In this document: piece after piece, positions 27,033 to 47,595 of the stretch | How the letters are laid out: the number at the start of each line of letters is the position of its first letter | Numbering within the stretch: position 1 is the stretch's first letter | Assembly: GCF_000722635.1 (NCBI RefSeq) | Contig: NZ_JOKH01000002.1 | Coordinates: forward strand, 688,756 to 752,755 | DNA length: 64,000 nt | Reading direction: 5' to 3' | From: Endozoicomonas numazuensis | Lineage (GTDB): Bacteria > Pseudomonadota > Gammaproteobacteria > Pseudomonadales > Endozoicomonadaceae | Made by a program: the position numbers and the translations under genes | Notes under the pieces: generated by a model | Seen by the model: the letters and a program-made list of their open reading frames with translations, nothing else | Databases searched by the model: none | What the model was told of the DNA's origin: nothing

Positions 27033-28753
27033 CCCGGATAATTCATAAAATAAGCAAAATTTGCCCTCAGCCCTTGATATAAATGACATTGCCACCAGAG
27101 TATTCCGGACACACCAGTTCGGAACTTGTGATGGATCAACCTGCTCAAGAAATACTCAAATTTCATCCGGTCAACGGCAAAACACTGAGAGCTGATTTTC
27201 AGGGTGGCGAGTTATCATCTGATTTTGGGACCATTTTACTGCGCGAAACCATGCTGCATAGCGGTCTCATTTCCAAGCTGTCCAACGCGATTGATGATAA
27301 ACGCCACCAATCCTACATCGACCATCCCTTGCAAGACCTCCTGACCCAGAGAGTTTTGCAGATGGCCTGTGGTTATGAGGACGCCAACGACAGCAACTAT
27401 TTGCGCAAAGATCCTATGTTCAAGCTTGCCGTTGGACGAAACCCGCTGAGCGAAGAGGGTCATTTAGCGTCAGCTCCGACGTACACCAGGCTTGGGCAGT
27501 CAATGACCAAAAAGGACATCTACAAGATGGCCAAGGCTCTTGCTGAGCATTTCATCAGCAGTTACGAGCTACCACCGATGGCAGCCATAATTGATCTGGA
27601 TCACACGCCGACCATTACCCATGGTGGTCAACAAATGAACCTGTTCAATGCTAAATATAATGACTACTGTTACCTGCCATTACTGATATTTGAAGGACTC
27701 AGCGGCAAGTTGATTACTGCTGTCTTGCGTCCGGGTAAAACACCTACAGGCAAAGAGAACGCCGCCATTCTTAAGCGCGTCATTCAGCTGATCCGACGGA
27801 GGTGGCCGAAAACGTATTTGCTGGTTCGGGGTGATAGCCATTTTGCCCAGCCTGAGCTAATGCGGGTTGTTCAGGATGATCCGCATTCCGACTATGTGCT
27901 GGGCAAAGGGGCAGGCCATAAAACAGCTCTACGACCCAAAGCCAAAGAGTTACTGGATGAGGCTCGACAAGCACTCAAGGTCAAGACCGGCCTGGCCAGA
28001 TTAAACAATATGCCAATACCCGAGCGGCTCAGGCTTTACGGAGAAGCAGAGTATCAGGCCAAAAGCTGGAAAGGCCTGGATACACGAATCATCTACAAGG
28101 CAGAGGTCAACCAGAAAGGCGACAATCCTCGTTTTATTGTGACATCGATAAAAGAGGCTTCTCCTGAGGTCATTTATGAAGAGCTTTACTGCCCAAGAGG
28201 CCAGGATGAGAACTTCATCAAGCATCTGAAAAGCGACCTGTCTGGTGACAGGCTATCAGACCAGGGCTTTCTGGCTAACCATCTGAGGATGTTTTACGCC
28301 TGTGCTGCTTACGTTATCCACCATGAGTTAAGAACCAAGGCCCTGAAAGGCACAGAACTGGAAAAAGCTCAGCCCTCAACAGTGATTGCGAAGCTCTGCA
28401 AAATTGCAGTGAAAGTGGTCGAATACAAAGATCGGATCAAGTTACATCTGCCTCGTAGCTGTCCATTCAGGGGGCTTTTGCGGCATGTGACAGAAGTGTT
28501 TTATTCGATGCCGCCACCCCGACCGGGATAAATGACTCTGCAGGCACTCAATTGAGTCAAAAAGCGACCAGATGAAAGAGCTCTGGGGGGGGGCGTTTAT
28601 TTGGAATTGGAGGTTTAGCGATAAATCTATCAGCCAAGCGTGCGTCTTGCTTGAAAAGTTGGTGCAGGAGGTCAATTGAAAAGTAGTCCGGCCAAAAAAC
28701 TCAGATCCAAGCCCCTTGGCAAAGGCTCGAACCTTGTTTATGAAATATCCGGG
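27033..28753 (+). mobile_element. IS1380-family insertion sequence in urtC
   Basis: 1721 bases. The terminal inverted repeats begin CCCGGATAATTCATAAA on the left, matched by TTTATGAAATATCCGGG on the right. The flanking target duplication is CTAA (27029-27032 and 28754-28757), as expected for this family. It contains one transposase gene. About 220 bases after that gene hold a G-run near 28586 and no second gene. Confidence 0.93.
27131..28531 (+). CDS. IS1380-family DDE transposase
   Basis: About 466 residues from the ATG at 27131 (MDQPAQEI); an earlier in-frame ATG at 27083 has no ribosome site. The DDE catalytic regions are visible as AAIIDLDHTPT, LLVRGDSHFA and the Glu in QDENFIKHLKSDLSGDRL. 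The gene is complete, so the element may be active. Confidence 0.9.
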   Translation: MDQPAQEILKFHPVNGKTLRADFQGGELSSDFGTILLRETMLHSGLISKLSNAIDDKRHQSYIDHPLQDLLTQRVLQMACGYEDANDSNYLRKDPMFKLAVGRNPLSEEGHLASAPTYTRLGQSMTKKDIYKMAKALAEHFISSYELPPMAAIIDLDHTPTITHGGQQMNLFNAKYNDYCYLPLLIFEGLSGKLITAVLRPGKTPTGKENAAILKRVIQLIRRRWPKTYLLVRGDSHFAQPELMRVVQDDPHSDYVLGKGAGHKTALRPKAKELLDEARQALKVKTGLARLNNMPIPERLRLYGEAEYQAKSWKGLDTRIIYKAEVNQKGDNPRFIVTSIKEASPEVIYEELYCPRGQDENFIKHLKSDLSGDRLSDQGFLANHLRMFYACAAYVIHHELRTKALKGTELEKAQPSTVIAKLCKIAVKVVEYKDRIKLHLPRSCPFRGLLRHVTEVFYSMPPPRPG

Positions 28754-31094: not shown

Positions 31095-31310
31095 TTAGCT
31101 ATATAATCGATCAACTATCGACCATCTAATCACAAACAAAGCACATAGCATAATCAGATACCCTATCAATATCTCAAAATATTTTTTCTTATTGTCATAG
31201 TACTCATACCACTTCCTTAGAGCATATACTCTTTTCTTCCATACCCCATAGGTCAGCATAACAGCATAAAGCAGTATGCCTATATCAATTACAAGTAGAA
31301 CTGGATCCAT
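31095..31310 (-). CDS. Small membrane protein, candidate immunity protein of the third tail cassette
   Basis: A 71-residue protein with two hydrophobic spans (VLLVIDIGILLYAVMLTYGV and LIGYLIMLCALFVIRW) separated by a charged Lys/Tyr-rich loop. It aligns end to end with the split gene at 31584-33206 (KKRVYALRKWYEYYDN against KGRIYAFGEWFYKEN; IGYLIMLCALFVIR against IGYILLGIFALYIR), so the two are paralogues. AGAGGTG precedes the ATG at 31310. It starts 7 bases after the stop of a toxin-tail remnant, the same relation as in the other two cassettes. The immunity role is inferred from this layout. Confidence 0.6.
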   Translation of the reverse strand: MDPVLLVIDIGILLYAVMLTYGVWKKRVYALRKWYEYYDNKKKYFEILIGYLIMLCALFVIRWSIVDRLYS

Positions 31311-31317
31311 TAAGCAT

Positions 31318-31410
31318 TCACCTCTTGCATACCTCACTGCCAGCTGCCGGGATTACAGCACCTCCAGCCAAGAATGAAATATACGAAAACAGCAAAGCAG
31401 CACAGAGCTC
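31318..31410 (-). pseudogene. Remnant of a third membrane tail (C-terminus only)
   Basis: The last 26 codons before the TGA at 31318-31320 read ALLFSYISFLAGGAVIPAAG then SEVCKR. They match the end of the orphan tail at 33213-34082 (LMYAGLLASKAAVVVAESKICKG) in spacing and in the terminal Cys-Lys. Upstream the frame contains a second LLFSY from a local duplication and no start codon. It is a decayed 3-prime end of a third cassette. Confidence 0.5.
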
Positions 31411-31771
31411 GGGGTCAGGGCGATTCATGATGCCGGATCCACTCCGGTCATACGAAAACAGCAGAGAGATTATGGCCGAGAGCTCTACACGATACGAAAG
31501 ATTAGGTCGCAATTATCTGGGTATGATTCATTTAGCAGCTTCAGTTCTTTGGCTGACTTAATTGTCAACACCCTCTAGCATCTCTACAGGTACTTATAAA
31601 TTTCATCAGGAAATACTACATACCGTATATACAGCGCAAATATACCTAAGAGGATATAGCCTATGACATATTGATAAAACATCGACCTATTTTCTTTATA
31701 AAACCATTCCCCAAATGCATAGATCCTCCCTTTGATTAAGGCATAGATAACCATACTAAAATAAAGCCTCG

Positions 31772-33025
31772 TCAGTAAAATCTGTGGGTCATTTCCGGTT
31801 CAGGCAGCTTGCCGAGTGCATGATATAAAGCGATTTCTGCGCATTTATAGGTTCTGAATCCGTATGATTTTCTCGTAGTGAGTTTTATCTTGGTATTCAG
31901 ACCCTCAACAATACCGCTGGAATACGCCTTTTTTGCCCGGAACCAGTTCAGGATGAGAGGCTTGTGTCGTCGAACAGTTTTAGCAACTTTTTTCATCGGC
32001 TCTATCTTTGATCGCATGACTCTTGTACACCAACGATCCAGATATTTTTCCGCCCAATGTGGTGAAATGTACTCCCAGAATGCCTGAAATTCTTCTCTGA
32101 GCAGGTAGGCTCTGACGCTTTTCAGGTTGTACTGAAGCACGGTGTTCAGCTTTATCTCTTCTTTCTCTGTGAGGTTTTCTTTGCGCTTGAGTAGGCACCA
32201 GCGTGTTTTTTTCAAAACAGGCTCATAACCATCGGCCTGTAGCTGCTTATGTTCAGATGCCCGGACTTCATCAATAGCCTTGTTCAACATGGCCACGATG
32301 TGGAAGCGATCCAGGATGTGCAGTGCCTGACTGGCACATTCCGCGATGGCTTTTACGTAGGGCTTCCACATATCAGAGCAGACATACTCCAATCGCTGAC
32401 TACGCTCCGTACCAAAGAAAGCGAAGAAGCTTCGAATCGTAGCCTCTGTACGCTCCTGACTAACCCACAATAATCGTGTGCAACCGCGATCAATCTGGTA
32501 AACGACAGTCAGGTATTTATGGCCTGTCTGGTAGGCAACCTCATCAACGCCAATAGCCCTGACGTTATCGAGTGTACGGTGGGCCTTTCCCCATTCAACA
32601 ACGTACTCAACAGCATGAAAGACTTTCTCCCATGAAGTACTGAAACTACTGGCAACCTCTTTCCACGATAACTTTTTTGCCCAATGTGCGAGGAACTGCA
32701 TGTAAACTTTGGTCAGCTCCTTCTTGCCATCAGCCCATGGAACCTGTTCAACCTTTACACCACATGAATTGCATTCCACCCGTCGCATTATGTAGAGCAG
32801 GAAAACCCTGATGCCCCAGAGAGGGATAAACTCGAAGCGACGTTCAGCAAGATGATCATAGCCAGGAGCAGGCTTCTGGCATCCTGAGCAGATAGCGTGA
32901 CTGTTCTTTCGTGGAACAACGGTTACATTGAATACTTCAGAACCTTGATAGAAGCCGAGCTTTACATCTTGATAAACAAATGACTTGAGTTTATGAACTT
33001 TATTGAGGATAGTTTTAATCAGCAT
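31772..33025 (-). CDS. ISL3-family transposase
   Basis: A 417-residue transposase with an N-terminal zinc-finger region (CSGCQKPAPGYDHL and CNSCGVKVEQVPW), then the DDE domain with IGVDEVAYQTGHKYLTVV and LHILDRFHIV, and the C-terminal SGIVEGLNTKIKL. It is complete. Its ATG (33023-33025) lies inside the base of a long hairpin (33022-33090), which could restrain translation. Confidence 0.92.
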   Translation of the reverse strand: MLIKTILNKVHKLKSFVYQDVKLGFYQGSEVFNVTVVPRKNSHAICSGCQKPAPGYDHLAERRFEFIPLWGIRVFLLYIMRRVECNSCGVKVEQVPWADGKKELTKVYMQFLAHWAKKLSWKEVASSFSTSWEKVFHAVEYVVEWGKAHRTLDNVRAIGVDEVAYQTGHKYLTVVYQIDRGCTRLLWVSQERTEATIRSFFAFFGTERSQRLEYVCSDMWKPYVKAIAECASQALHILDRFHIVAMLNKAIDEVRASEHKQLQADGYEPVLKKTRWCLLKRKENLTEKEEIKLNTVLQYNLKSVRAYLLREEFQAFWEYISPHWAEKYLDRWCTRVMRSKIEPMKKVAKTVRRHKPLILNWFRAKKAYSSGIVEGLNTKIKLTTRKSYGFRTYKCAEIALYHALGKLPEPEMTHRFY

Positions 33026-33090
33026 CAGTGGTCACTTTTGTTGTTTTTTTGTCCATCAACAAAAAACTATCAAAAGTTTGCTACTGATGC
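33022..33090 (-). promoter_or_regulatory. 69-base hairpin covering the ISL3 transposase start
   Basis: GCATCAGTGGTCACTTTTG (33022-33040) pairs with CAAAAGTTTGCTACTGATGC (33071-33090) with few mismatches, and an inner TTGTTG/CAACAA pair extends it. The start codon is part of the left arm, so transcripts entering from outside would fold it away. Confidence 0.5.
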
Positions 33091-33212
33091 TTTTATCTCA
33101 AAATCTGTTCATTTTTACCCACAGTTATCCCTGAAGAGCCAAAATAAAGAACAATGGCAACATCAAATATTATCAATAGGAAATAAGCCAGCTGAGTTTT
33201 ACTCATAACATA

Positions 33213-34082
33213 TCACCCTTTACAGATTTTACTTTCAGCTACAACTACAGCAGCTTTCGAAGCTAAAAGCCCTGCATACATAAGGGCAATACCTATCAAG
33301 GGACCAGTTAAGAAAAATATCCCAAGCAAACTCACAAATACGGATAAAGCTATAAGGGCTCCAAGCCCATTACATTTATGATCAATCGCCAAATAATCAA
33401 GAACAGTCTTTACGTTCAAAAATGCGGCTATGCCTACTGAAAGTACTCCAATAAGACCTTTTCCAATTACCCCAAAAACAAAACCAATACACCCAAGAAT
33501 ATCGAGAGCATCATCACTGAGGAAACCACCATTAGCCCCACCACTGATCTTATAAGCCCCGGCTCCCGTTTCAGGATCAATAATCAGGTAGCCTGCACCA
33601 TTCCAACCATTCAAGGTAATATTACGCTCGTGGGCTGTTACGGTCTTTCCAGCCAAGACACCCTGTCGGATTTCCTGCTCAACTTCAGTCGCCAAGGTTA
33701 TGCTGGCAAGTGCCTGATCAAGATTATCCCGAGTAATGGTAAATACTTTCTGGCCTTCAGCTACCGCCAGAGTTAGCGCTTTTACAGCACTCACGCCTTC
33801 TGCCGGAGAGTCTTCCGTTGAAAATATCTGTTCAGGTACCAGATGCTCCATCGCGGAGCTATTGGTTCCAGTTCGCTGGTTGTAGTCTGCCCAAAGCTTT
33901 TTATCATTCTGCTTATGAACAGCCATTGTCATATAGTTATCCACATCCATGGCCAGTCCACCCATTTTTACATCCCTGGGCATACCAAACCAGTATAAAG
34001 GGGTGACGCTGGTCATAAACAGACCAAAACTGGGGGCACGGTATGGTATCAGTCCCAAGTACTCTAACTTCGTAACCACCAC
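33213..34082 (-). CDS. Orphan C-terminal cassette of the transglutaminase-fold protein (second membrane tail)
   Basis: A 289-residue frame with no signal peptide and only a GTG start inside the preceding gene. From RAPSFGLFMTSVTP (residue 15) to AYKISGGANGGF (about 183) it closely matches residues of about 740-905 of the large protein at 34294-37395. It then diverges into its own tail with three or four hydrophobic spans (GFVFGVIGKGLIGVLSVGIA, then ALIALSVFVSLLGIFFL, then GPLIGIALMYAGLLAS) and ends in SKICKG. This is the structure of an orphan toxin module: a silent alternative end that could recombine with the main gene. Its partner gene follows 6 bases downstream. Confidence 0.7.
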   Translation of the reverse strand: MVVTKLEYLGLIPYRAPSFGLFMTSVTPLYWFGMPRDVKMGGLAMDVDNYMTMAVHKQNDKKLWADYNQRTGTNSSAMEHLVPEQIFSTEDSPAEGVSAVKALTLAVAEGQKVFTITRDNLDQALASITLATEVEQEIRQGVLAGKTVTAHERNITLNGWNGAGYLIIDPETGAGAYKISGGANGGFLSDDALDILGCIGFVFGVIGKGLIGVLSVGIAAFLNVKTVLDYLAIDHKCNGLGALIALSVFVSLLGIFFLTGPLIGIALMYAGLLASKAAVVVAESKICKG

Positions 34083-34297
34083 TCAGCAAAAGCAAGAACA
34101 AAACTAATTGCCATCCAAGCAATTCCAAAACGACTGACAGGCTTTTTCACTTCCAAGCTAATAACTATTAAGAGAAGTCCACATATTGCACCGATTATAA
34201 TCGGCCAAGATATTTGTAATGCATAAAGTGCCACAATATATAGTGAAAGAGTAGTTTGTATTACGACTCTTTTAGGCCTGAATAACATATGGTTCAT
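34064..34297 (-). CDS. Small membrane protein, candidate immunity protein of the main tail
   Basis: A 77-residue protein with three hydrophobic segments (VVIQTTLSLYIVALYALQIS, WPIIIGAICGLLLIVISLEV and FGIAWMAISFVLAFAEWWL). Its ATG overlaps the stop of the large gene upstream as ATGA, and its end overlaps the start of the orphan cassette. The tight coupling to a gene ending in a pore-like membrane tail suggests that it protects the producer. It does not resemble the two other small proteins of the locus, as expected if each matches its own tail. The role is inferred. Confidence 0.6.
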   Translation of the reverse strand: MNHMLFRPKRVVIQTTLSLYIVALYALQISWPIIIGAICGLLLIVISLEVKKPVSRFGIAWMAISFVLAFAEWWLRS

Positions 34298-37200
34298 TTT
34301 TTATCACCAGCACACAACGGAGTATTCAAAATCCAGTCCTTCAGATATACACCACCGTAGCCTAAAATGAAAAGCCCTATAGCTGCACCAATAGGTCCAG
34401 CAACTAATGCCAAAAGACCAATAACTAACACATTAACAACTGTATATAGGATGGAAAAAATAACTGCTGCTGTTGCATCTCTACACTTCATAGATAAATC
34501 GTAAATGTTCATTGCAAATGCAAGAAAAAATAAAACACCTCCTATACTTGAAAAAACAGCTGCCACACCTAATGACCCGGCAATGATTGCAAGAAGCTCT
34601 TTAATAAAGAAACCTATACCAAGCCACTCAAACACTTTAGAAACAAGCTCAACAAAACCACCATTCTGACCACCACTTATTTTATAAGCTCCTGCCCCAG
34701 TATCTGGATCAATGATTAAATACCCAGCTCCAACCCAGCCCTTATAAGCTATATTTTTCTCATGAGCAGTAATGACCTTCCCAGAATTCACCCCCTGCTT
34801 AATTTCTCTCTCTACATCGTCTGACAGCTTTAGAATTTGCATTGCTTCTTCTAAGTTTTCACGAGTAATAGAAAGAATGCGCTGCCCTTCTTGAGCAGCT
34901 ATAAGCAGAGCTTTCATTGCGCTTACTCCATATGCAGAGCTCTCACTTGTCGAAAGCATTTGTTCAGGAACAATGTGCTCCATCACAGAGCTTCTTTTAC
35001 CTATTGAAAAGTTATAATTACTCCACAGCTTTCTTTCATTACTTTTGTGCACTGAAATTACGCTGTAATTATCTACATCCATTGCAAGGCCGCCAAACCT
35101 CACATCTCTCGGCATTCCAAACCAATATTGAGGTGTAACATTAGTCATAAACAAACCAAAACTCGGAGCCCGAAATTGAATGACATCACTATTTTTTGAT
35201 GACACTTGGTCGTGTACATCATTCTGAGCAAAATAGCTCAAAATAGTTGCGTATAAAAGGTCACCGACTACGCTATGTTGTGATAGAGCATCAAATTCAG
35301 CATTTGATAATTTATCTTTGGTTAAACTCACATTTTTTTGCAGCTTGCTTGCCTCCGATTCAGACACCCCCTGTAAATCCAACCCAATAGCCCGATACTC
35401 ACCCGCTACCGGTTTGTTATTCGCTGTCGTCCAGCCATGCGTTGGTGAATACAGGCCCAGTGTACTGTACAACTCTGTACCCATTTTCCCTGCCCCGGCG
35501 GTGAGTTCTACTTCACCGTCCAGAGTGAATTCAGCCGTCATATCGATCAGGTAACCGGGAAGGGTATCCGGCAATTGTGATGGATCTATCGGACTGCCAT
35601 CGTCATTTGCCTGGGGAAGATATTTCTCGATAATGGCTTCGTCTTCTTCTGTACTGGGTCGGAAGGACAGGGCCAGTTTTTTACCGGCCAGCTTGACGGT
35701 AGGCTGCTCAAAGTTAAACAGGCTTACATCCGGGTTGCCATAAAGCTGGGTCTGGAGCTGGTACTTGAATTTGTGGCGCAGTTTTTCTGGTACTTCTGCA
35801 AAGCGTTCGCTGGTGACCAGCACTTTGTAGGGCAGGCCTGCTGCCAGAGGAGCCGGTGGTTTTACCTTGACTTCCTGTAGGCCCAACACTTGACCGACGG
35901 TGGCATCGGGATTCTGATTGGTGATGTAGTCCTGCAGTTTTTGCTGGTAGTCCTGCAACTGCTGTTCTATAGCCATCTGGGGCAGGTTCTGTACAAAACC
36001 CTGCTCTTCATTAATGGTTGAATTGGCTTGAATTTCATCAACCAGAGCCTGGGCATCAAAAGGCACCTGCTCTTGAAGGTCCATGCCTTTAGTAAATTCA
36101 TACTGTTTAAAGCTGGCATCCATAGGAATCCAGTGATCGCCCTGTCGATTCTTCACACCCCGACTGGGTTCAAAATCGACCCAGGCTTCTACCCAGGTGT
36201 GTTCCATACGAATGTCGGTGACCTTGCCACCGCGCAACAAACCTGTATTGGGAATACCGCCCTGTCCCATAAGGTTCTGGGCAGCGGCGGGCACTTCGAC
36301 TCCACCCACCCAGTTCATCACTTTATCCGCTGGCACTTCAATGGTGCCGTAGGCATAGCGAGCCGGAATGTTTGCAGCACGCAGCAGGCCAATCAGCAAA
36401 CTGGCAATATCAGTGGCATTGCCCCGGCGGGTTTCCAGAGTCATGGCCCCGCCCTGAATCGAGCCGTAACTGGGAATAAAGCGGATATTGTTGTGTACCC
36501 AGGCGTAAATTTCAGTCGGGTTATTGTTCAGATCAACCGCCAGTTGTCGTATTTCATCATTAATCTGGATATCCATAGTATCAGACAGGTGTTCTTCTGA
36601 TACCTGATTTCTGGCCTCCAGTGCTTTCTGAACCGAATCGGGCAGTATACCGGCTGACACGACCATAAGCCCTGCTACAGGACTCATACCCAGCACATTT
36701 TCCAGTTCGCTAAGGGTGACCGCTGGCTCGCGCACTTCACTGTCCGGTGTGCCGAAAGGCAGTTTATTTGGATCGAAAGGCGCATAGCTTTTCTGGAACT
36801 GTTGCTGATTCAGAAAACGCCCCAGCTCTTCCCAGCCAGACTGCAACTCCACATCATTATTGGTGTTCTCCAGCTGCTGATAATATCCGGAGAACTGGCG
36901 GTACTGCTCTTTGAATTGTTCCATAGCCTCCTGATGACGCTCCAGAGCAATTGCAGGCAGGTCGCGGTTTTTCAATTCAGTTTCGAGGTTCTGCCATTCC
37001 GACCATGCTTCTGTGTAAGCTTCATCAACTCCTGAGTAGAGAGTCGTCAGTTTATTTTTATCTGAAGTCATGAGGAATTTATCCCCCAACCCAATGGATC
37101 GGGTAATAGTGGCCAATAAACCTTCATTCGCTCGTTCCCTGAAACGAATACCTGGCTCATCATCGGCGACCCACTCTTTCAGCTTTTGCAGCCTGTGGGC

Positions 37201-37395
37201 GAGCTTCTTCTCAGGGGTGCTTTCCATCATGGCGGTCAGGCGTCGTTCATACTCCGCCTCTTTTTCTATATTGTCCGCCATTGCCTTGCCTGTGGGAGAC
37301 AGGAAGAAAACAAAGACGAAGAGCGACGAAAGCAACAACGACACGCCTTTGCCCAGTAGGCCCTGGCGAAACGACTCCATTACCTGAACAGACAT
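34294..37395 (-). CDS. Large secreted transglutaminase-fold protein with a membrane-span C-terminal tail (candidate polymorphic toxin)
   Basis: A 1033-residue protein with a signal peptide (SLLLSSLFVFVFFLSPTG, cleavage after AMA). Residues 45-220 are helical and charged. A transglutaminase-like core follows: RRGNATDIASLLIGLLRA (about 320), EHTWVEAWVDF (about 398) and DHWIPMDASF (about 418). The His and Asp are present, but the usual Cys is Ala (N-A-T-D). A conserved joint RAPSFGLFMTNV to KISGGQNGGF (about 740-905) precedes a tail of four to five hydrophobic spans with a Cys pair (SMKCRD and PLCAGDKK). The DNA becomes clearly AT-richer from about 35335 downward. GGAG before the ATG sets the start. 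It is the third gene of the operon, coupled to the small gene by ATGA. Confidence 0.75.
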   Translation of the reverse strand: MSVQVMESFRQGLLGKGVSLLLSSLFVFVFFLSPTGKAMADNIEKEAEYERRLTAMMESTPEKKLAHRLQKLKEWVADDEPGIRFRERANEGLLATITRSIGLGDKFLMTSDKNKLTTLYSGVDEAYTEAWSEWQNLETELKNRDLPAIALERHQEAMEQFKEQYRQFSGYYQQLENTNNDVELQSGWEELGRFLNQQQFQKSYAPFDPNKLPFGTPDSEVREPAVTLSELENVLGMSPVAGLMVVSAGILPDSVQKALEARNQVSEEHLSDTMDIQINDEIRQLAVDLNNNPTEIYAWVHNNIRFIPSYGSIQGGAMTLETRRGNATDIASLLIGLLRAANIPARYAYGTIEVPADKVMNWVGGVEVPAAAQNLMGQGGIPNTGLLRGGKVTDIRMEHTWVEAWVDFEPSRGVKNRQGDHWIPMDASFKQYEFTKGMDLQEQVPFDAQALVDEIQANSTINEEQGFVQNLPQMAIEQQLQDYQQKLQDYITNQNPDATVGQVLGLQEVKVKPPAPLAAGLPYKVLVTSERFAEVPEKLRHKFKYQLQTQLYGNPDVSLFNFEQPTVKLAGKKLALSFRPSTEEDEAIIEKYLPQANDDGSPIDPSQLPDTLPGYLIDMTAEFTLDGEVELTAGAGKMGTELYSTLGLYSPTHGWTTANNKPVAGEYRAIGLDLQGVSESEASKLQKNVSLTKDKLSNAEFDALSQHSVVGDLLYATILSYFAQNDVHDQVSSKNSDVIQFRAPSFGLFMTNVTPQYWFGMPRDVRFGGLAMDVDNYSVISVHKSNERKLWSNYNFSIGKRSSVMEHIVPEQMLSTSESSAYGVSAMKALLIAAQEGQRILSITRENLEEAMQILKLSDDVEREIKQGVNSGKVITAHEKNIAYKGWVGAGYLIIDPDTGAGAYKISGGQNGGFVELVSKVFEWLGIGFFIKELLAIIAGSLGVAAVFSSIGGVLFFLAFAMNIYDLSMKCRDATAAVIFSILYTVVNVLVIGLLALVAGPIGAAIGLFILGYGGVYLKDWILNTPLCAGDKK

Positions 37396-37544
37396 TCTTT
37401 ACTCCATGTAATTTTTATAAGTCTGAGTATGTTTAAAATTAACCGTACTTCCACGCTACCGCTGAAGGTTGATGCCACCATAATTATCTGGCCAACCCAG
37501 CGATGCTTCTATTATTTTTCGACCTGCTTATCAGGCAGTCCCTT

Positions 37545-40500
37545 TCAGCGACACTGTAAAGGAGGCTCAACCTTCAAAGTAAAGTACTGAATAGCAGTAT
37601 CCCCGCAACCATCTGATACCCGTACAATCACAGGGTATTCGCCTGGTATGGGATGTTCCCAGTTGATCACGCCTTCTACACTGATACTCATACCTTCAGG
37701 ATACTGATCCAACTCAAAAATAGGCGCGTTCCTGTCCTGGGTGACCGCAACCTTGTACCTATAGGGTTCAATTTCCAGAACATGGGTCATGGGCTCAGAG
37801 GTAATGGTTAACTTAACGGGGTTCCTGACCAGACTGACTTTATCAATCAACCCACCCAGACTGTCTGAAAGGCCGGTGGCCTTAAAAACCAGCTCGGCAC
37901 TATCGTTGGAGGCAACCACCTCATAGCGCTTGGTGATCCAGCCTGTATCACTGCCATCCAATGTATCCAGCCGTTTTCCATCCCACCAGACTTCCACCTG
38001 GTTGGTATCACCCGGTGAAACCTCCCTGGTTTCACATTGAAACCAGGTACACTCTTTCTCGTTATAAGTAGACACTCTGGGTGTATAACTGAATTCGAGG
38101 GTATAACTGTCTCCGGCGCTCGTTCTGACGACTTGTGTCGCTTCAGCGTTTTCGTGGGCATCCAGTTCCAGTCTGGATCGGCCTTCCTTAGCACGAATGC
38201 CTGCAACTTTACCAAACTGGATTTCGAAGGGTTTCTGACCATCGCCCTGCCAGCCAGGAATGGCATCAAAGAACCCGGAGCGGCCATAGTGAATAGAGGG
38301 ATGATCTTCAAACGAACCATTGGTCATCTGATTCTTAAAAGCACTATCATCAAATGGGCAACTCAGGCTCACATTATCAATAAGCCCGCCCACACCGTCT
38401 GATGTACCGGTAGCTTTCAAAGTCAGTGCTGTTTTCGATTCACTGGCGGTTACCTCATAATGTTTACTCGTCCAGTGACGATGTTCAGCCGAGATCGTAT
38501 CGATTTGTTCATCGCCCCACCAAACTTCAATATCATTGGTATCTTTTGGCCAGTGAATACTGGGCACGTAGCCCAGGGTCAGATTGTACTTCTGCCCTAC
38601 CCGGGTCGTTATATCCTGGCGAATCGCACTGTTTTCATAACCGTCCAGCTTCAGAGCTGCATCACCATGAACGACCCAACTCTTGTCATAGAAGGTTCTA
38701 AAGGCGTAGTCCTTACCCCAGATATAATGCTTGAGGTATCTGGCTACATGCGTATCTCTCCAGTGGTCATCATCTATCTGGTGGTTTTGCCCATGGATCC
38801 AGTCTCTATGCTTCCAGAATTTATAGTCATTCTCCGCAAGCCATCCTTTGCGCTTCCAGGCGTTGTATCTCCAACCTGTTCGGCTTTCAAGAATTTTGAA
38901 CGGTTCAGCACCTGTGGCTCTCCAGCCAGGTATATTAGAAAAGAGCCCCCAATAAAACTGGTCCAGGGCACCGTGTTGCTCAAAGGAGCTATTTTGTACA
39001 AGATTATCAAAACGACATGAAGTGCACTTTAACTGAACATTATCAATCAACCCGCCAACACTGTCGTTTTCACCCACTGCATGGAAAGCCAGCTTCGTCA
39101 GGTTGTATTGTGCCGCCACTTTAAATTGCAGAGTCTTCCAACCTGCCCTATTGCCTTCAAGGGTCGTGACTTTTTCATGTCCCCAATACACATCAATGTT
39201 ATTTGTGGTTGAGTCACTGTCGCCTTCCACACGTGGAGAGTAATCAAGACTCAACAAGTACTGATCACCGGGCGCTGTTTCAACCCATTGCGCAATCAAC
39301 GCATTACGGTGCGCATCCAGCTCCAATATCGCTTTACCATCCGTAGCGGTCTGGGAAACTCCGTTGGTTTGAATTTCAAATCGGTTTTTCAGAGCCACCC
39401 AGCCAGGTATATATCTGAAGACTCCCCAGTCGCCGTAGTTCAGATATCCGTGACGCTCAAACGATCCATTAACCAATAAGTTAGAGCTGTAATGAGAATT
39501 TTTTACTTCCGCAACGGGTACTTCTGCAGGACAGACAAGTGTATAACCTGCATTGGCTAATGTTACTTGCTCACCGTCTATCACCGTTTGCAATACACAG
39601 GCATGTCCACCAGGATTTAGAGTGTCGGTAGCTATCGGATGCGTATATTCAGCTGTCACACCAGAGTTTAGAATGACTGAAGATTCGCCCAACACGTTAG
39701 AGCTTTGTCCTCCGATATCCACCATTAAACGACTCATAGACAACTCAGTAGAGGTTTTAGTGCCACTGTTTTCAACAGTGAAATAACAGACTTGAGGTTC
39801 ACCTATGATCAGTTGACTCTGGTCAGCCGTCACCTTTCCTCTTAGAGCAGTCAGCATGCTTTCCTGCACCCTGAACTCTGCCTGGGACATGACAATTTCA
39901 TTCCCGCCCTTTTCTATCAGTCTGGCGACCACCTGATAGGAGCCTTCCACAACCCCCTTGAGCTCGATAGCACTGAACCTCTGTTGTACTCCGCCCGATG
40001 CCAGTTCAAGCATATCCATGACTTCACTGAAAATAATATCCCCATCCGGTGAAATAACATTGATATGGAGCTCTGAGGCTTGGGCTACCGCATTGACAGA
40101 CAGGTTCTGAATCAGATTTTCAGCGTTAACCCTGTCGGTTGTGTGGTAGACCTGCTTGTCGGTTGTCGTTCGGATGTTGATAATCGTAACCTCTTCCCCT
40201 CCTGAACCAGAGGCCCGGATGGTGAAGGGTTTGCTGGCAGTAGCCACTTGACCCGTAAGATCATCTTTCACATGGATACGGGCAATATATTGACCATTAG
40301 CCGTATCTGACGTATTCCATAGGCTTTGAAAACTGACCGAGTTTCCTGAACCTATTCCGGGTAGATTATTTCCAGAAACTTCCGCAACTTTATTGCCTTC
40401 AGTATCAAAAATTGAAATATTCGCTACTGCAGAACCCGTCGTTGTGCCTGTATTCTGAACGACAGCGGTGAGCATGACATTAGTATCTGCAGGATACTGG

Positions 40501-42560
40501 TTACTGTTCGTACCGATGGATGGCAGGTAACGTGATGACAGTACATCGATCACTTGTTGTCCCAGAGACTGATAGACATCATTACCGTTGATATCCCGGT
40601 AATATAAATCAAGAGCTTGTGTCACCACTCTTGTCTCACCTGGCACAGGGTTCTTGAAAGTAATGTCGTAACTCAGGTCTTCAATCTGATCAATGGTGAT
40701 ATCGTCAAATCGCCACTCAATAAGCGTGCTTCCATCCTTTTGGCTGACGCTATCGGGTTTAATTGAAAAAGAGCTACTGACAAGGTCGATGTCTGCCCCT
40801 GACAATTGACTGATGACCTGAACATTGGTCAGTCGTTTTTTATCACTAAGGACGATCTCCCTTTTAACCTTGTTTCCAGCCCCATCGCTGATCACCAGTA
40901 TCCCGCTGGCCGGTAAGTCTTTATTAATGGCATTAAGAGTGAACTGCACCTTTAACGCACCAGGAATAAAGTTCTTTGTATCAAGAGCCAGGTTTTCTGA
41001 ACCTTCTTCAAGCTCAACCCTGAAAATACCCGTATCACGATCAATCACACCATCGTCATTCAGGTCCTCACCTTCATCCAGCTCATCGTTTCCATTGATG
41101 TCTTCAGTCCGACGATCAAGCGTATTGTTTTTATTCAGGTCTTCACCGGCATCAATGAGTGAGTTGAGGTTCAGATCTTCAAAATCACCTGCAATACCTT
41201 CAATGCTTCCATCAAGTTCAATGAGTTTAACGAAAGGAGCAAAACTGTCACCCGTGGAGTTAATCAGATCAAAATTCATTCCTCCCGGGTATCCGTACGA
41301 GTCATAACTGCCAAAACCGTAGACATAGATACCAAAGGGGTTCGGACTGGAAATAGTATGAGAACCTTCAGACACCTTGATTTGTGCTCCACTGAATCCA
41401 CTATTACCAATATCCTCAAACTTGTCTGGCGCAATAGCCTCGCCATCAAGAACAATCGAATTAGTATTATCTTTTGGAACAACGACATTGACATAGTTAT
41501 TAACAAAACCCAGTTTCTCTTCGAGAGACGCAAAGGTATAACTTTTTAAAAATTGCTCAGCAGGAGGTACCAGCATCATAAAAGGGTCGGATATAACTCC
41601 GTCACTGCTCTGCCCTTGTGAATATTGAGCAACAAGAACAGGCTCACTGCTTTCTATGACAGAGCGGGTGCTTAATACTTTCTCAACAAACTTCCCTTTG
41701 GCCAGGGTTTCAATCACCTCTCCGTTAATTTTAACTTCTGTATTATCAGAAGAAGCTAATATACGGAAAACATCACCACTTCTCCGGGTTGCCAGAGGGA
41801 CGGTCAAAAAAGATTTACCCCATGTTGATACAGGGGGAAGCATTTCCACCAGGTGATCGCAGGCTGATTTTGTCACGGGTACGTATGCACATTCAGCGCC
41901 ACTAAAAACAGCAACAGGAGTAGAAGATTTGATTAATGTTCCTGTCAGATCACCATTACCAGGATCATTGAATAAAAAAACTTCATTAGCGTCCAGCGTC
42001 ATCGTAAAAGGCTCACCGGCTAGCCTGCCATGCGCGCTGAGTATGGGAGTAATGGTCACTACCGTGCCATCGTAAATCCCGGTGACTGAAAATTCTGATG
42101 GTGCGTTTCCACTGTAACCCCTATAACTAAGAATTGAGTATTCAGTACCCAAAGTATCTATAGATAGCCCATAAAAAGCATCTGTAGTATATCTTCGCTG
42201 GTTTAAACCATACACAGCGACTTTGACATCACTTGTTACACGTACTCCAAGATTTGATATACCGTTAACGCTTGGTTCATCGACTTTGGAGGGGAGCTCT
42301 ATGCGAATGATAGTGTTGGGTTCAATCGAAAAGTCTTTAACAAAGTTGAGCCCGGGAATGTGAACTGCGCCATTAGCCCTCTCTTCACTGGAGATAATGA
42401 CAGACAGGCGAGCACTACCATCAATATTCGGCATAAATGACAAAACATAATTTTTGCCATTATTATTGCTCGCATGAGCACTAATACCTACCAAAACACT
42501 AAACAATACAAAACCGAAAGCTATCGCCAACGTCGGGATGAAATATTCCTTAATTCTCAT
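37545..42560 (-). CDS. Giant secreted adhesin: IgGFc-binding-like domain plus three DUF642-like repeats
   Basis: 1671 residues with a signal peptide (ending ISAHAS). Residues of about 35-440 match the IgGFc-binding N-terminal domain (VAVFSGAECAYVPVTKSACD, then HLVEMLPPVSTWGKSF, FRILASSDNTEV). Asp-rich dockerin/EF-hand-like segments follow (about 460-520: DLNLNSLIDAGEDLNKNN, DINGNDELDEGEDLNDDG), then CARDB-like beta domains. Three copies of a lectin-like unit begin at NGSFERHG (about 1027), NSSFEQHG (about 1185) and NGSFEDHP (about 1411), each with GLIDNV or GLIDKV near its end. An Ig-like domain ends the chain. Its start overlaps the upstream stop by 4 bases. It is probably surface-bound or released and binds glycans or host proteins. 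Confidence 0.75.
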   Translation of the reverse strand: MRIKEYFIPTLAIAFGFVLFSVLVGISAHASNNNGKNYVLSFMPNIDGSARLSVIISSEERANGAVHIPGLNFVKDFSIEPNTIIRIELPSKVDEPSVNGISNLGVRVTSDVKVAVYGLNQRRYTTDAFYGLSIDTLGTEYSILSYRGYSGNAPSEFSVTGIYDGTVVTITPILSAHGRLAGEPFTMTLDANEVFLFNDPGNGDLTGTLIKSSTPVAVFSGAECAYVPVTKSACDHLVEMLPPVSTWGKSFLTVPLATRRSGDVFRILASSDNTEVKINGEVIETLAKGKFVEKVLSTRSVIESSEPVLVAQYSQGQSSDGVISDPFMMLVPPAEQFLKSYTFASLEEKLGFVNNYVNVVVPKDNTNSIVLDGEAIAPDKFEDIGNSGFSGAQIKVSEGSHTISSPNPFGIYVYGFGSYDSYGYPGGMNFDLINSTGDSFAPFVKLIELDGSIEGIAGDFEDLNLNSLIDAGEDLNKNNTLDRRTEDINGNDELDEGEDLNDDGVIDRDTGIFRVELEEGSENLALDTKNFIPGALKVQFTLNAINKDLPASGILVISDGAGNKVKREIVLSDKKRLTNVQVISQLSGADIDLVSSSFSIKPDSVSQKDGSTLIEWRFDDITIDQIEDLSYDITFKNPVPGETRVVTQALDLYYRDINGNDVYQSLGQQVIDVLSSRYLPSIGTNSNQYPADTNVMLTAVVQNTGTTTGSAVANISIFDTEGNKVAEVSGNNLPGIGSGNSVSFQSLWNTSDTANGQYIARIHVKDDLTGQVATASKPFTIRASGSGGEEVTIINIRTTTDKQVYHTTDRVNAENLIQNLSVNAVAQASELHINVISPDGDIIFSEVMDMLELASGGVQQRFSAIELKGVVEGSYQVVARLIEKGGNEIVMSQAEFRVQESMLTALRGKVTADQSQLIIGEPQVCYFTVENSGTKTSTELSMSRLMVDIGGQSSNVLGESSVILNSGVTAEYTHPIATDTLNPGGHACVLQTVIDGEQVTLANAGYTLVCPAEVPVAEVKNSHYSSNLLVNGSFERHGYLNYGDWGVFRYIPGWVALKNRFEIQTNGVSQTATDGKAILELDAHRNALIAQWVETAPGDQYLLSLDYSPRVEGDSDSTTNNIDVYWGHEKVTTLEGNRAGWKTLQFKVAAQYNLTKLAFHAVGENDSVGGLIDNVQLKCTSCRFDNLVQNSSFEQHGALDQFYWGLFSNIPGWRATGAEPFKILESRTGWRYNAWKRKGWLAENDYKFWKHRDWIHGQNHQIDDDHWRDTHVARYLKHYIWGKDYAFRTFYDKSWVVHGDAALKLDGYENSAIRQDITTRVGQKYNLTLGYVPSIHWPKDTNDIEVWWGDEQIDTISAEHRHWTSKHYEVTASESKTALTLKATGTSDGVGGLIDNVSLSCPFDDSAFKNQMTNGSFEDHPSIHYGRSGFFDAIPGWQGDGQKPFEIQFGKVAGIRAKEGRSRLELDAHENAEATQVVRTSAGDSYTLEFSYTPRVSTYNEKECTWFQCETREVSPGDTNQVEVWWDGKRLDTLDGSDTGWITKRYEVVASNDSAELVFKATGLSDSLGGLIDKVSLVRNPVKLTITSEPMTHVLEIEPYRYKVAVTQDRNAPIFELDQYPEGMSISVEGVINWEHPIPGEYPVIVRVSDGCGDTAIQYFTLKVEPPLQCR

Positions 42561-45274
42561 TGTTCAACTCCCTTGATTTTGACGCCAATGGTTATTGTTC
42601 TATCTCCATCAGGAGTAATCACCTTCTCGGATATACTTTGTTCGGCCTCAACTCGAACAGAAGGAGCCACCTCTACACTGATTCCCTTAATATCTGGAGA
42701 TGATAGTGAGCTACTCAACTCAACAGTAAACGGATAGCGTCCGCTCTCTTTAAAGAGGTGCTCCATATCCAACAAAACAATCGACTTTTCTGTATCGTTC
42801 CCCGTCAAACTCAGTACTTTATCTACCTCTTTAATAATGTCTGAGTCAGTGTCACGCCAAATTGTTTTAAAAGTGAAATCAGATGATTTATTTGAGCGAT
42901 TAACAACATTAGCCGTTAATATCAGTCGTTCAGTAGCACCAACATGAGAAAATGCTTTGTTCAACCTGAGATTGACCTGAGCTAATGCACTGGTCTCAAC
43001 AATCGTAATACTGGTGTATTTCTCAGTGAGCAGCTGCTTTGTAAATTGGTCATATGCAGACAGCTTGATACGATACCTGCCCGCAGGTTTATTCGCAGTA
43101 AACCAGTTTGCATCTATAGATACCGTTTTCTCAGGCAGAATGACTATGGGGTCGCCAGGGCCAACACCACCTGTCATACTTCCTACAGGTGTCGCAAAAA
43201 GAATCCTGTCCGCGCTGTCCAGCACTTCGATATACATTTGCGCTGTCTTCGGTACATCCCCAGCATTATTGACAGTCGCTGTAATTGAAACAGGCTCATA
43301 CGCTGAAAAATGAGCGCTTCCTGCTCCCAGTTCAGTAATGGCAAGCCCTCCCGAATCAGAAGGAGCTAAAGAAACATTGAGCTGCAGTTTTCCATATTCT
43401 TCCATGTCTACTTCTGGCAGTTGACTCCAATACCCGGAAGCACTGACCAATAGTTTAAATTTCAGGTCCTTTATGTCATCAAGAGTGTATGACCCGTCAG
43501 AAAGCGTTCTTGTTGTTTGATTTAAACCATCAATAGCTACAGCAGCATCCTGAATCGGAAGCCCTGTAACAACATCGAACACTTTTCCAAACAAGGTACT
43601 GCGCTCGTCTTCTCCTTCAGGTTTTTTAACAAGCTGCACACTGCCTACATTCACCTTATTCCCTGCGTTTGCTATAAATTCAAGCGACCTGGACTCATAA
43701 CCCTCCTTTGCAACAGTCAGGGTAATCTTTCCAGCTTCCAGATCATCAAGAACAAAAAGGCCACTCACTCCGGTTAAAACAGAGACAGCAGAACTTTGTG
43801 CGTTAACATTGGCATCCGAAATTGCTTGACCCGTATCTGAATCAACCACCACGCCATTAGCAGAAAGCTTAATGTTGTCAGGTTCCCCTTGCCCTACAAG
43901 AGAAGGTGAAAAGATCACTCTCTTTCCCGCTTCCATAACAGCATTCGCAGAAACTTCACGATACCCGGCTGCAGTCACCTTGATCTTGTATTTGCCCGGC
44001 TTCAATTCAGCCTGGTATCGCCCTGAACTGTCACTGATAATTGTGAATGTATTGTCACCACTCTCGTCTGCCAACGACAGGCTTGCACCACTTATGGCTT
44101 TATCAGACTTTGCGTTGAGAATTGTGCCTTCGATGACTGCTATATCGGGCACAGTTTGAAGCCTTACCAAACCAAGGTTTACTATCTGGCCCTTTGCCAC
44201 TTCTGCTGTCTGCTGCACTGTCTGGTAACCAGCAACTGAATAGGCTATTTCATGATTCCCGGGGTCAATGTTTTTAATAACAAAATAGCCCTGGTCACCT
44301 GTTTTGGACTGCTTATCCTCTTGCCCTTTGACGGTAACAACAACACCACTCAATGGAAGGTTTGGACTGACAGAGAATACTCTTCCACTGAATGTCCCCA
44401 TCGTTGGTTCTTCAGGGAAGGTGATATTGCTCGCGAGGTAGAGGGCACGAAGAGACAAGGCTGTTACAAAAACATCGCCTTCCCAGGACCCATCAGGCAA
44501 TTGATTAGCTTTCAGCTCATCAACCTGGGTTTTATAAAGACGAGAGTCACGAATTTCGGGAATAATTGCGAGCAAGGCAATGGCTTTTTGCCAAGATTCG
44601 TTCAAACCGGAAGCAGTAGAAGGATTTTCTAACAGGTACTGCCCCATTTTTTCCAGAGCATCGGGAACATTGGTGTATTTAAACCTATATGGCTGAAGCG
44701 CTTTATAGACAAAAGAAGTGGCAGATATGGAAGGTTCATTAGAATCATAGACAGAATAGGCCCCATTACTAACTTGCTTCTCTAACAAGTATTGTATGGC
44801 AGCTACTTCCGCTGTTTGAACTTGCGCATCTTGTGAAAGTACATAAAGCGCAACAGCTGTGTCGAGAACGCTACTGCTGTATCCCTTATTACTACCAAAT
44901 CCACCATCCTGATTTTGACGACTCAGGATTTCTTCCAGTTCTGCTACAACAGAAACACCCTGCCTGATCTTATGGGATGTAATAGCTGATAGAGATTCAG
45001 TATCAAGACTCTCCGAATCAAAACTCTCCAGGTATTTTAGTGCATTAGCCTGGATAGAAGAGTCTGTATTACCTAAAAGACTCAGTGTAATAACAGCTTC
45101 AACCGTAGACCTTGAAACACTGGTTAGATCAGACTCTGAATAAATACTTCCATTGTCTGCTATACTCTGTTTAAGAAACTTCGCATCAAGAGCCCACAGA
45201 CTTCCAATATTAAGAAGAAAAAGAAGATTGATAGCAAAACTCAAAAAACATGAATACTTGCTTCTCTTATACAC
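42557..45274 (-). CDS. Secreted alpha/alpha-toroid protein with carboxypeptidase-regulatory-like repeats
   Basis: 905 residues with a signal peptide. Residues of about 30-290 contain repeats with RQNQDGGFGSN and NQLPDGSWEGD, the pattern of prenyltransferase or terpenoid-cyclase-like (alpha/alpha toroid) domains. At least four carboxypeptidase-regulatory-like Ig modules follow (GTFSGRVFSVSPNLPLSGV near 293, IEGTILNAKSDKAISGA, GVVVDSDTGQAISDANV, GKVFDVVTGLPIQDAAV), then two CARDB-like domains. It looks extracellular and structural rather than enzymatic. It is the first gene of the operon; its TGA overlaps the start of the adhesin gene by ATGA. Confidence 0.72.
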   Translation of the reverse strand: MYKRSKYSCFLSFAINLLFLLNIGSLWALDAKFLKQSIADNGSIYSESDLTSVSRSTVEAVITLSLLGNTDSSIQANALKYLESFDSESLDTESLSAITSHKIRQGVSVVAELEEILSRQNQDGGFGSNKGYSSSVLDTAVALYVLSQDAQVQTAEVAAIQYLLEKQVSNGAYSVYDSNEPSISATSFVYKALQPYRFKYTNVPDALEKMGQYLLENPSTASGLNESWQKAIALLAIIPEIRDSRLYKTQVDELKANQLPDGSWEGDVFVTALSLRALYLASNITFPEEPTMGTFSGRVFSVSPNLPLSGVVVTVKGQEDKQSKTGDQGYFVIKNIDPGNHEIAYSVAGYQTVQQTAEVAKGQIVNLGLVRLQTVPDIAVIEGTILNAKSDKAISGASLSLADESGDNTFTIISDSSGRYQAELKPGKYKIKVTAAGYREVSANAVMEAGKRVIFSPSLVGQGEPDNIKLSANGVVVDSDTGQAISDANVNAQSSAVSVLTGVSGLFVLDDLEAGKITLTVAKEGYESRSLEFIANAGNKVNVGSVQLVKKPEGEDERSTLFGKVFDVVTGLPIQDAAVAIDGLNQTTRTLSDGSYTLDDIKDLKFKLLVSASGYWSQLPEVDMEEYGKLQLNVSLAPSDSGGLAITELGAGSAHFSAYEPVSITATVNNAGDVPKTAQMYIEVLDSADRILFATPVGSMTGGVGPGDPIVILPEKTVSIDANWFTANKPAGRYRIKLSAYDQFTKQLLTEKYTSITIVETSALAQVNLRLNKAFSHVGATERLILTANVVNRSNKSSDFTFKTIWRDTDSDIIKEVDKVLSLTGNDTEKSIVLLDMEHLFKESGRYPFTVELSSSLSSPDIKGISVEVAPSVRVEAEQSISEKVITPDGDRTITIGVKIKGVEQ

Positions 45275-45856: not shown

Positions 45857-46313
45857 GACTTGCCGTATATCATTTAGTTAACTGACCTCCGGCAGAGCCG
45901 GAGGCTTATTAGATGACGTCCTCAAAGGGCTTTTATTGCGCCCAAGGGCGCGGTTCAAAACCAAACCTTAGCTGGTCACGTGATTCATCATTCTTTTCTT
46001 GATTCCGAATATATTCTCTGACCATATCCTCATCAAGACCAACTGTACTGACGAAATATCCTCTTGCCCAAAAATGCTCACCAGAAAAATTCCGCTGCTT
46101 ACCTTTGAAGTGCCTCGCAATAGCTATTGCACACTTCCCTTTCAGATAACCTACGACGTAAGAAACAGAGTATTTTGGTGGAATACTGATGCAAATATGT
46201 ACGTGATCTCGCATCAAATGCCCTTCTATAATTTCACACTCTTTTCGCTTGGCGAGTTCATGAAATATCGCTCCCAAAAACTTTCTCAAACTGCCATAAA
46301 TGACCTTCTGCCT

Positions 46314-47595
46314 CACTGCTGTCCGGTTAAACATATCCAAGCTCCAGCTTTCCCTGATTCTGGAGCAAGCTGCCCCCGCTTTTCTCCGGAGGATCACTGA
46401 ATAACTCCAGAAGAGAACGACGACCGGTCAGATTAAGACTGATTCTCCTGGCTATTTGCTGTAACGACAGCTGGCAGCGTGTTGTGATCTGGGCCAGGCG
46501 TAGTAGAAGGTAGGCAATCATTGCTGTCAGAACCTGAATTTTCACTGCGTTCTCACTTCTGCCAATGAACCGCTTAATCTTCAGATTCTGTTTAATCCAC
46601 TTGAAGAACAGTTCAATCTGCCAGCGAGATTTGTACAGGGCAGCAATTTCAACCGCTGTTCTCTTCAGGTCATTACTGATAAATACCAGTACTTTGCCGT
46701 CTTCCTCACGGTGAATTTTGACTCGTCTCAGGTAGGTTGGACAGTCTTTACGGCCTTTGTCAGAAGAAAGCCTGATGATTTGATCTTCAAGGATAAAGTT
46801 TTCCTTCGTTGCACGAGTTTCAATGACTTCGTAGACCGCAGAGCTCTTCATTCTGCCAACGAAAAGAGTACCCTGGCAGGTCATCTCGTAATACCAGCTG
46901 TAGTCATCATAGGCCCGGTCAAAAACATAGGTAACACCCGCCATAATGGGCAGGTTCTGAGCGGCTTTACGATCATTCACTTTGGCGCTGGTCAGTTCGA
47001 AGAAGGTCGGTGTATCTGCCTCCGGGTCATAAACCGTGTGCAGCTTTATGCCGCCCTTGGTTTTCCTGAAATGAGCCCATTCAAACTGGTTTACATTCAA
47101 GTCGATGGTTGTGGAGTCAATCAGACGTACCATGTCACTGGCCGCTCCCCGTGGCAGATGGCTTTTGACCTTTTGCAGCAGAAAGAAAAAAGTCTCTGAG
47201 AAAATGCTGGCGGACCGATGACTGTTGGCGTCCGACAGTGAAGAGCGCTTTATGCGAGAGACGCCCAAATGGTAATGGTGGCTGTGGCAGGTGTTGAAGT
47301 TCTCAACTAAATCCCGAATCGAGACCCGACTGGCCAGTTGAGCAAACATCATGGCGACCAGCTGAGTCCAGCATGACAGAGTTCTGATCCGATGATCACC
47401 ATTGTGACGGTCAACCACCTTCTGGAATTGGTGGCGGGGAATGACTTTGAGCAACTGTTGGAAAACGCTGTTATGATGCTTCATGCCTGTCTCTCTTGGT
47501 CTGTGAAATAGCTGTCTCGACAACTTCTATTTTACTGTAAACCAACAGGGACAGGCACTTCCCAGTTATTCCGGATTTTTAACCGGACAGCAGTG
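46314..47595 (-). mobile_element. IS4-family insertion sequence inside the IS200/IS605 copy
   Basis: 1282 bases with 18-base terminal inverted repeats CACTGCTGTCCGGTTAAA, present at both ends. The target duplication is CTTCTGCCT (46305-46313 and 47596-47604). It carries one transposase gene. Confidence 0.93.
46327..47484 (-). CDS. IS4-family DDE transposase
   Basis: About 385 residues from MKHHNSVFQQLLKVIPRH; a 13-residue longer frame begins at 47523. The DDE motifs are LIDSTTIDLNVNQ, YVFDRAYDDYSWY and the YREK-like YKSRWQIELFFKWIKQNLKI. It is complete and probably functional, so this is a recent insertion. Confidence 0.9.
   Translation of the reverse strand: MKHHNSVFQQLLKVIPRHQFQKVVDRHNGDHRIRTLSCWTQLVAMMFAQLASRVSIRDLVENFNTCHSHHYHLGVSRIKRSSLSDANSHRSASIFSETFFFLLQKVKSHLPRGAASDMVRLIDSTTIDLNVNQFEWAHFRKTKGGIKLHTVYDPEADTPTFFELTSAKVNDRKAAQNLPIMAGVTYVFDRAYDDYSWYYEMTCQGTLFVGRMKSSAVYEVIETRATKENFILEDQIIRLSSDKGRKDCPTYLRRVKIHREEDGKVLVFISNDLKRTAVEIAALYKSRWQIELFFKWIKQNLKIKRFIGRSENAVKIQVLTAMIAYLLLRLAQITTRCQLSLQQIARRISLNLTGRRSLLELFSDPPEKSGGSLLQNQGKLELGYV

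Follow-up and report, generated by a model that had tools for sequence, protein, structure and literature searches.

A predicted RHS-less polymorphic toxin locus with exchangeable membrane tails on a cysteine-less transglutaminase scaffold in Endozoicomonas numazuensis

A 64,000-nucleotide stretch of the 6.34-Mb genome of Endozoicomonas numazuensis (contig C2:688756-752755 of G000; hereafter the window) carries a minus-strand operon which probably encodes a polymorphic toxin system built on a transglutaminase (TGase)-like scaffold. The operon comprises, in order, P0001, P0002, P0003, P0004, an orphan module (P0005), a small gene split by an insertion sequence (IS), a tail remnant, and P0007; coordinates are those of the window, and all of these features lie on the minus strand. 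ATGA overlaps, reported between the large genes in a preliminary description, are present as 4-base overlaps at P0001/P0002 and also at P0003/P0004, but P0002 and P0003 are separated by 149 bases. The main protein, P0003 (34294..37395; 1033 aa), consists of a hydrophobic leader, a Cys-less TGase region (residues 279-427), a module of 173 residues for which we use the name TLM, and a membrane tail. Its TGase core is recognized by Pfam (PF01841, 2.6e-16), with Ala at the alignment column taken to be that of the catalytic Cys; this column is Cys in none of the 31 alignable rows (33 full-length proteins, two rows not being alignable there), in agreement with the inactive transglutaminase scaffold proposed earlier. 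The TLM (residues 741-913; 34657..35175) has the C-terminal end GAYKISGGQNGG, closing with a GAYKISGGxNGG-like motif, after which the hydrophobic tail begins. Tail 1 (34294..34656; 120 aa), a predicted membrane toxin, has three hydrophobic segments and Cys at positions 58 and 115, and P0004 (34064..34297; 77 aa), the gene overlapping the end of P0003, encodes the predicted membrane immunity protein for this tail. Neither RHS nor DUF6531 was found in P0003 by Pfam. In searches of PDB sequences the TLM returned nothing useful (best E 0.2), and P0003 and P0001 returned only weak TGase and cyclase matches.

P0005 (33213..34082; 289 aa) is an orphan TLM with a second tail (tail 2), which begins at the TLM and lacks a leader. 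It aligns with residues 738-991 of P0003 at 55% identity (E 6.6e-80), or 65% over the TLM and 28% over the tail (z 2.1); the DNA of the two TLM copies in the window is 63% identical overall, a figure that starts at 74% in the initial 100 nt, drops to 54-62% centrally, and rises again to 74-79% in the final part. Small membrane gene 2 follows in two pieces, a 5' piece (33100..33206; start MSKTQLAYF, ATG checked) and a 3' piece (31584..31776), separated by an ISL3-family insertion (31785..33099, ends inferred from the flanking repeat) whose transposase lies at 31772-33025 (PF01610, 2.1e-77). The repeat, CAGATTTT (33100-33107 and 31777-31784), resembles an 8-base target duplication, and a scripted search found no terminal inverted repeat of the insertion. 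The 3' piece is similar to the gene that follows a tail-2 homologue in L091 (44% identity, z 13.4), as is P0007 (31%, z 12.7), and the 3' piece and P0007 are themselves related (27%, z 7.7). P0007 (31095..31310, in the open reading frame (ORF) 31095-31337 with ATG at 31310) is small membrane gene 3, a predicted immunity protein. The remnant of tail 3, its end portion, lies between these two genes (31318..31398), and its best match is the L091:7475 tail (z 7.5), with the window's own orphan tail second (z 4.1). When the stretch 31325-31610 was searched against its own genome only the self match was returned, and the sequence ahead of the remnant matches nothing else there. The gene order of the preliminary description (TGase gene with tail, small gene, orphan, IS-split gene, remnant, third small gene) is borne out, and its third tail remnant is present, but only about 24 residues of it are recognizable (31327-31398).

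P0003 was matched in 8 of 58 genomes searched, its own counted; two of ten other genomes of the genus match, one of them (G003) via fragments only, and a collection of named genomes yielded one relative only, E. arenosclerae (one of 15 candidate stretches). The tails, for which swapping had been anticipated, are not invariant across strains: identity between P0003 and its E. arenosclerae counterpart falls from 76% in the body to 47% in the TLM and 25% in the tail, and the gene after the E. arenosclerae tail is unrelated to P0004 (z -1.4). In blocks of 50 residues, identity ranges over 54-98% through residue 650 and then stands at 58% (651-700), 38-48% (701-950), and finally 18-20%, and the DNA match covers 35369-37405 at 77% and then only the TLM end (34655-34772, 70%). 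The main gene of G003 is decayed and IS-broken, and the frame with its body end runs on into 122 nt of TLM DNA whose identity is 93.4% with the orphan of the window, 68.9% with P0003, and 50.8% with E. arenosclerae; the main gene there therefore bears an orphan-type TLM. This decayed gene also holds an IS605 OrfB/TnpB-like gene (L024:12547-13755; PF01385 1.2e-23, PF07282 3.2e-18). The nearest relatives of tail 1 are those of L065 and L067 (G126 and G363, which belong to a different family within the order), at 46-47% with bodies at 58-60%, while that of tail 2 is in G426, from another order of the class, at 43% (z 18.9) with a body at only 37%; in that genome the counterparts of tail 2 and small gene 2 occur together as a pair. 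In these comparisons the body stays conserved while TLM and tail change, and the alignments show that the TLM takes part in the exchange, its two ends being the portions best conserved from copy to copy.

A search with an 8-row TLM alignment (E <= 1e-5; own genome counted in each draw, a few genomes recurring) found the module in 24 of 391 genomes in the order draw, 24 of 369 in the class draw, and 8 of 398 in the phylum draw. Stretches were retrieved from 22 of the 23 other matched genomes of the order draw, 12 of 23 of the class draw, and two of four new ones of the phylum draw, and together with the window make up a table of 70 modules, in which the RHS form is under-represented because the unretrieved genomes gave mostly weaker matches in long frames. 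The 33 full-length genes include 22 with a membrane-only tail, five with a membrane part and a further stretch, five with an RHS-length C terminus, and one ending at the TLM; the RHS-less form is about 1,000 residues long. A further 27 of the 70, with tails of 61-179 aa, are not preceded by a complete body, in certain cases simply owing to truncation by a contig end. In G048 (L021:2492-6752), two tandem TGase copies each have an in-frame stop at the body/TLM boundary.

Modules from the same genome share their TLM ends but not their tails: in 51 same-genome pairs the last 33 TLM residues are on average 85% identical and the tails 28%, versus 47% and 27% in 1174 between-genome pairs. Three modules of L061 are 95-97% identical over the last 99 nt of the TLM with tails at 26-38%, and in G426 four consecutive TLM modules (L091:7475-17915) each precede a membrane-predicted ORF; in two of these modules the open frame ahead of the TLM is only 412 residues long. 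A pair of Cys residues, one at position 41-96 and one within 15 residues of the end, recurs in 37 of 50 tails of 61-179 aa, as compared to 6.9 expected from shuffles (maximum 15 in 500 rounds). In leave-one-genome-out profiles, from which near-duplicate modules 18 and 58 and doubtful modules 52 and 62 had first been removed, 31 of 46 tails scored above all 40 shuffles, both intact window tails included, as compared to 4 of 46 for reversed sequences. By profile, most tails thus belong to one membrane family, as diverged members of it, and are not unrelated; a single family for all of them was rejected on the same count. The motif Gxxx[GAS]xxxG is in neither window tail.

The gene downstream of each tail was taken as the longest ORF beginning near the tail end, which replaced an earlier choice favoring membrane ORFs and which misses true neighbors such as the orphan's IS-split gene and that of L061:1233, whose frame opens farther upstream. 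A neighbor was found for 44 of 49 membrane-only tails and was membrane-predicted in 38 of the 44, whereas tails with an added soluble stretch had a neighbor in four of five cases, membrane-predicted in none of the four; the background rate is 30% of 530 ORFs. Covariation was assessed over 820 pairs of 41 modules, requiring z >= 6 for both tail and neighbor, with the earlier membrane-favoring choice and with the orphan represented by the 3' piece of gene 2 only. Tail and neighbor similarity coincided in five of the 820 pairs against 0.29 expected, a number reached in none of 2000 permutations. By this measure the tails co-vary with the downstream gene, incompletely.

Established toxin parts occur on the same scaffold. 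SUKH is a common immunity protein family of polymorphic toxins, and in L090 a SUKH-1 gene (5.9e-9) comes after the gene for a single RHS-less protein in which Transglut_core and TLM precede a hydrophobic part and then a NucA/NucB DNase. A pretoxin HINT domain (1.7e-8) lies just downstream of L100. Rhs effectors exchange C-terminal toxin and immunity parts, and a relative in L025 combines TGase, TLM, DUF6531, and RHS repeats, although P0003 itself is without RHS repeats. Because TGase and TLM precede DUF6531/RHS in L025 and carry NucA/NucB, then SUKH-1, in L090, the scaffold is placed with polymorphic toxins. The TGase-RHS protein of L025 also ends in a hydrophobic part, with a four-span membrane gene directly after it (L025:14675-15100). 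An RHS-less TGase protein, L096:3013, ends in DUF6310 (PF19829, 6.9e-14), which for this reason is suggested to be a toxin domain.

Two large genes precede P0003. P0001 (42557..45274; 905 aa), predicted secreted partner 1, has a hydrophobic leader at its N terminus, four CarboxypepD_reg stretches (PF13620, 4e-46), and a putative alpha-alpha toroid (squalene-cyclase/TED-like) recognized through weak Pfam matches under the curated cut-off (PF13249 1.2e-4, PF07678 0.0032). P0002 (37545..42560; 1671 aa), predicted secreted partner 2, combines IgGFc_binding and three DUF642 domains (PF17517 1.8e-79, PF04862 5.8e-19) with a weak MG2 match under its cut-off (PF01835 5.1e-5), and had no useful match in the PDB sequence search. 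Among the 19 RHS-less full-length TGase loci for which 4 kb or more of upstream sequence is available, the window counted, a P0001 homologue is present in 15, a P0002 homologue in 16, and both in 14; in L094, P0001- and P0002-like genes are on the downstream side of the TGase gene. Transposases flank the operon, IS200-like and DDE/DUF4372 upstream (45933-47523) and another DDE downstream (27083-28531).

In the available part of Zhang et al. 2012 (PMC3482391), inactive TGase domains occur in polymorphic toxins and are followed by an RHS repeat array. A leader, a Cys-less TGase, and a variable C-terminal toxin (here predicted) are common to those proteins and P0003; in contrast, RHS follows the TGase there, while here the tail adjoins the TLM with no RHS, and the orphan TLM arrays and two large partners found here are not mentioned in that part of the report. 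The proposal of a new polymorphic toxin locus therefore stands with respect to the polymorphic-toxin scaffold, given its RHS and NucA/NucB plus SUKH-1 relatives, but not with respect to kind, because polymorphic toxins with an inactive TGase have been in the literature since 2012 (PMC3482391); new, relative to what is available of that report, would be the RHS-less form, the orphan arrays, and mostly one two-cysteine tail family. A literature search to which subscription journals were largely inaccessible found no recognizable description of RHS-less TGase toxins. The closest characterized parallel to the tails known to us is with the ionophore toxins of contact-dependent growth inhibition (CDI) systems, which the available text of Halvorsen et al. 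2024 (PMC11630599) describes as polymorphic, highly diverged helical membrane toxins with small (72-100 aa), hydrophobic, two-helix immunity proteins; the likeness, compared by description, is of diverged membrane tails with a small membrane protein, whereas the CDI toxins have a CdiA/CdiB scaffold, VENN, a five-helix bundle, and a putative glycine zipper, and the tails here have a recurrent Cys pair. Orphan cdiA-CT/cdiI modules, from the accessible part of Poole et al. 2011 (PMC3150448), are downstream toxin fragments without initiation signals, accompanied by immunity genes and in some cases IS-disrupted, which are shared with the main genes of other strains and in which identity breaks at the conserved motif VENN. 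The array break-point pattern here is similar, but the break is at the TLM rather than VENN and there is no CdiB. No two-partner secretion domain, CdiB, or VENN was matched by Pfam in P0001-P0005, genes beyond the operon being scanned only in part, and no MafB N-terminal domain (DUF1020) was matched at the locus.

We consider it likely, from sequence comparison, that the locus is an RHS-less polymorphic toxin system with an exchangeable membrane-toxin tail and a protector gene. P0003 would be exported by Sec, as its leader suggests, and the Cys-less TGase protein and its two large secreted partners would form a surface or extracellular delivery assembly. The last approximately 120 residues of P0003 would be the toxin, inserting in the inner membrane of a competitor and probably depolarizing it, and P0004 in the membrane of the producer would block tail 1. 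The orphan module, IS-split gene, and remnant may be displaced or stored tail/immunity cassettes. More speculatively, a Sec-exported apparatus of three proteins (P0001, P0002, and the Cys-less TGase protein) might deliver polymorphic toxins without CdiB, a type VI secretion system (T6SS), or an RHS cage, with the two-cysteine hairpin acting both as depolarizing toxin and, in proteins where a nuclease comes after it, as the inner-membrane route of that nuclease, a proposal we regard as possible though rather doubtful. The inactive-TGase class would gain a compact RHS-less form that comes with partner genes found repeatedly beside it, arrays of cassettes, and a predicted membrane-acting effector family, and, if the scaffold delivers without an RHS cage, TGase, TLM, and partners would be the minimal parts of an uncharacterized gammaproteobacterial delivery route.

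Several observations weigh against the toxin and protector interpretation. The G003 gene breaks about 41 residues into the TLM, leaving its tail out of view, and whole-tail exchange with both states intact was not caught among the genus genomes compared. Alike tails occur without alike neighbors in 21 pairs and the reverse in four, and two of the five covarying pairs are close kin (L065/L067 of the same genus, L097/L098 of the same genome). To the genes after the L065 and L067 tails P0004 shows little similarity (pairwise z -0.6 to 2.1), and the profile link of P0004 to the neighbors of related tails is weak (6.7 bits, a score matched by 8 of 1000 shuffles). Among the 38 membrane neighbors, that of L100 is a HINT-bearing ORF, and for the full-length proteins of L023 and L011 no suitable ORF was found directly downstream. 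Fifteen of the 46 tails, six of them without any Cys, fall outside the common profile and may either represent a second kind or have diverged too far to join it, and GxxxG is enriched only slightly in the tails (53 versus 41, SD 6).

Three other explanations were weighed. The tail may be a translocation or anchor hairpin rather than a poison, with the enzymatic domain still present in relatives and lost from the window, as five RHS-less proteins extend past the hydrophobic part (L066, L090, L092:12723, L096, and L101), one into a NucA/NucB DNase, one into DUF6310, and three into stretches without a clear Pfam match. We find this unlikely, since membrane-only tails form the majority of full-length genes (22 of 33) and are kept and diversified in arrays, and neighbors are mostly membrane proteins (38 of 44) but those of soluble-domain tails are not (0 of 4), whereas for a simple anchor there would be no need of a membrane partner that changes. 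That P0001-P0003 instead form a surface adhesin, with the tails as variable anchors, the small genes as chaperones, and no poison, would fit the adhesin-like domains of P0001 and P0002, and anchors and chaperones might co-vary as well. This seems very improbable given the TGase scaffold in relatives with DNase and SUKH-1, RHS repeats, and HINT, the leaderless orphan modules, and the near-identical TLM ends with unrelated tails among modules of one genome. Least probable of the three is that bacteria are not the target and that the module acts instead on an animal host or on host cells: Endozoicomonas is associated with marine animals, but a linked, co-varying small gene is expected of effectors toxic to the producer's own kin, and related modules are present in 24 of 391 and 24 of 369 genomes of the order and class draws.

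Membership in the CDI, Rhs, and MafB systems was dropped for lack of their signature domains in Pfam, as was anti-phage defense, PADLOC giving no match for six proteins. P0001 was rejected as NCBIfam 'ProA' (14.7 bits against a cut-off of 1500). Carriage by phages was likewise rejected, with 52 pattern matches in viral contigs and none confirmed; no PHROG was found for P0001, P0003-P0005, or P0007, and the two PHROGs matched by P0002 have no known function. Among plasmids, 17 records were returned, none covering 80% of P0003, and 8 of the 15 matches listed are annotated as RHS repeat-associated proteins. The G003 stretch also encodes five similar multi-span proteins in tandem, of which one is truncated where the stretch ends (L024:1-6643). 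One copy was compared with Pfam and had no match; the four whole proteins are 404-451 aa long and share the C terminus GFSETGW.QWKKFY.PLDYLSTLF.

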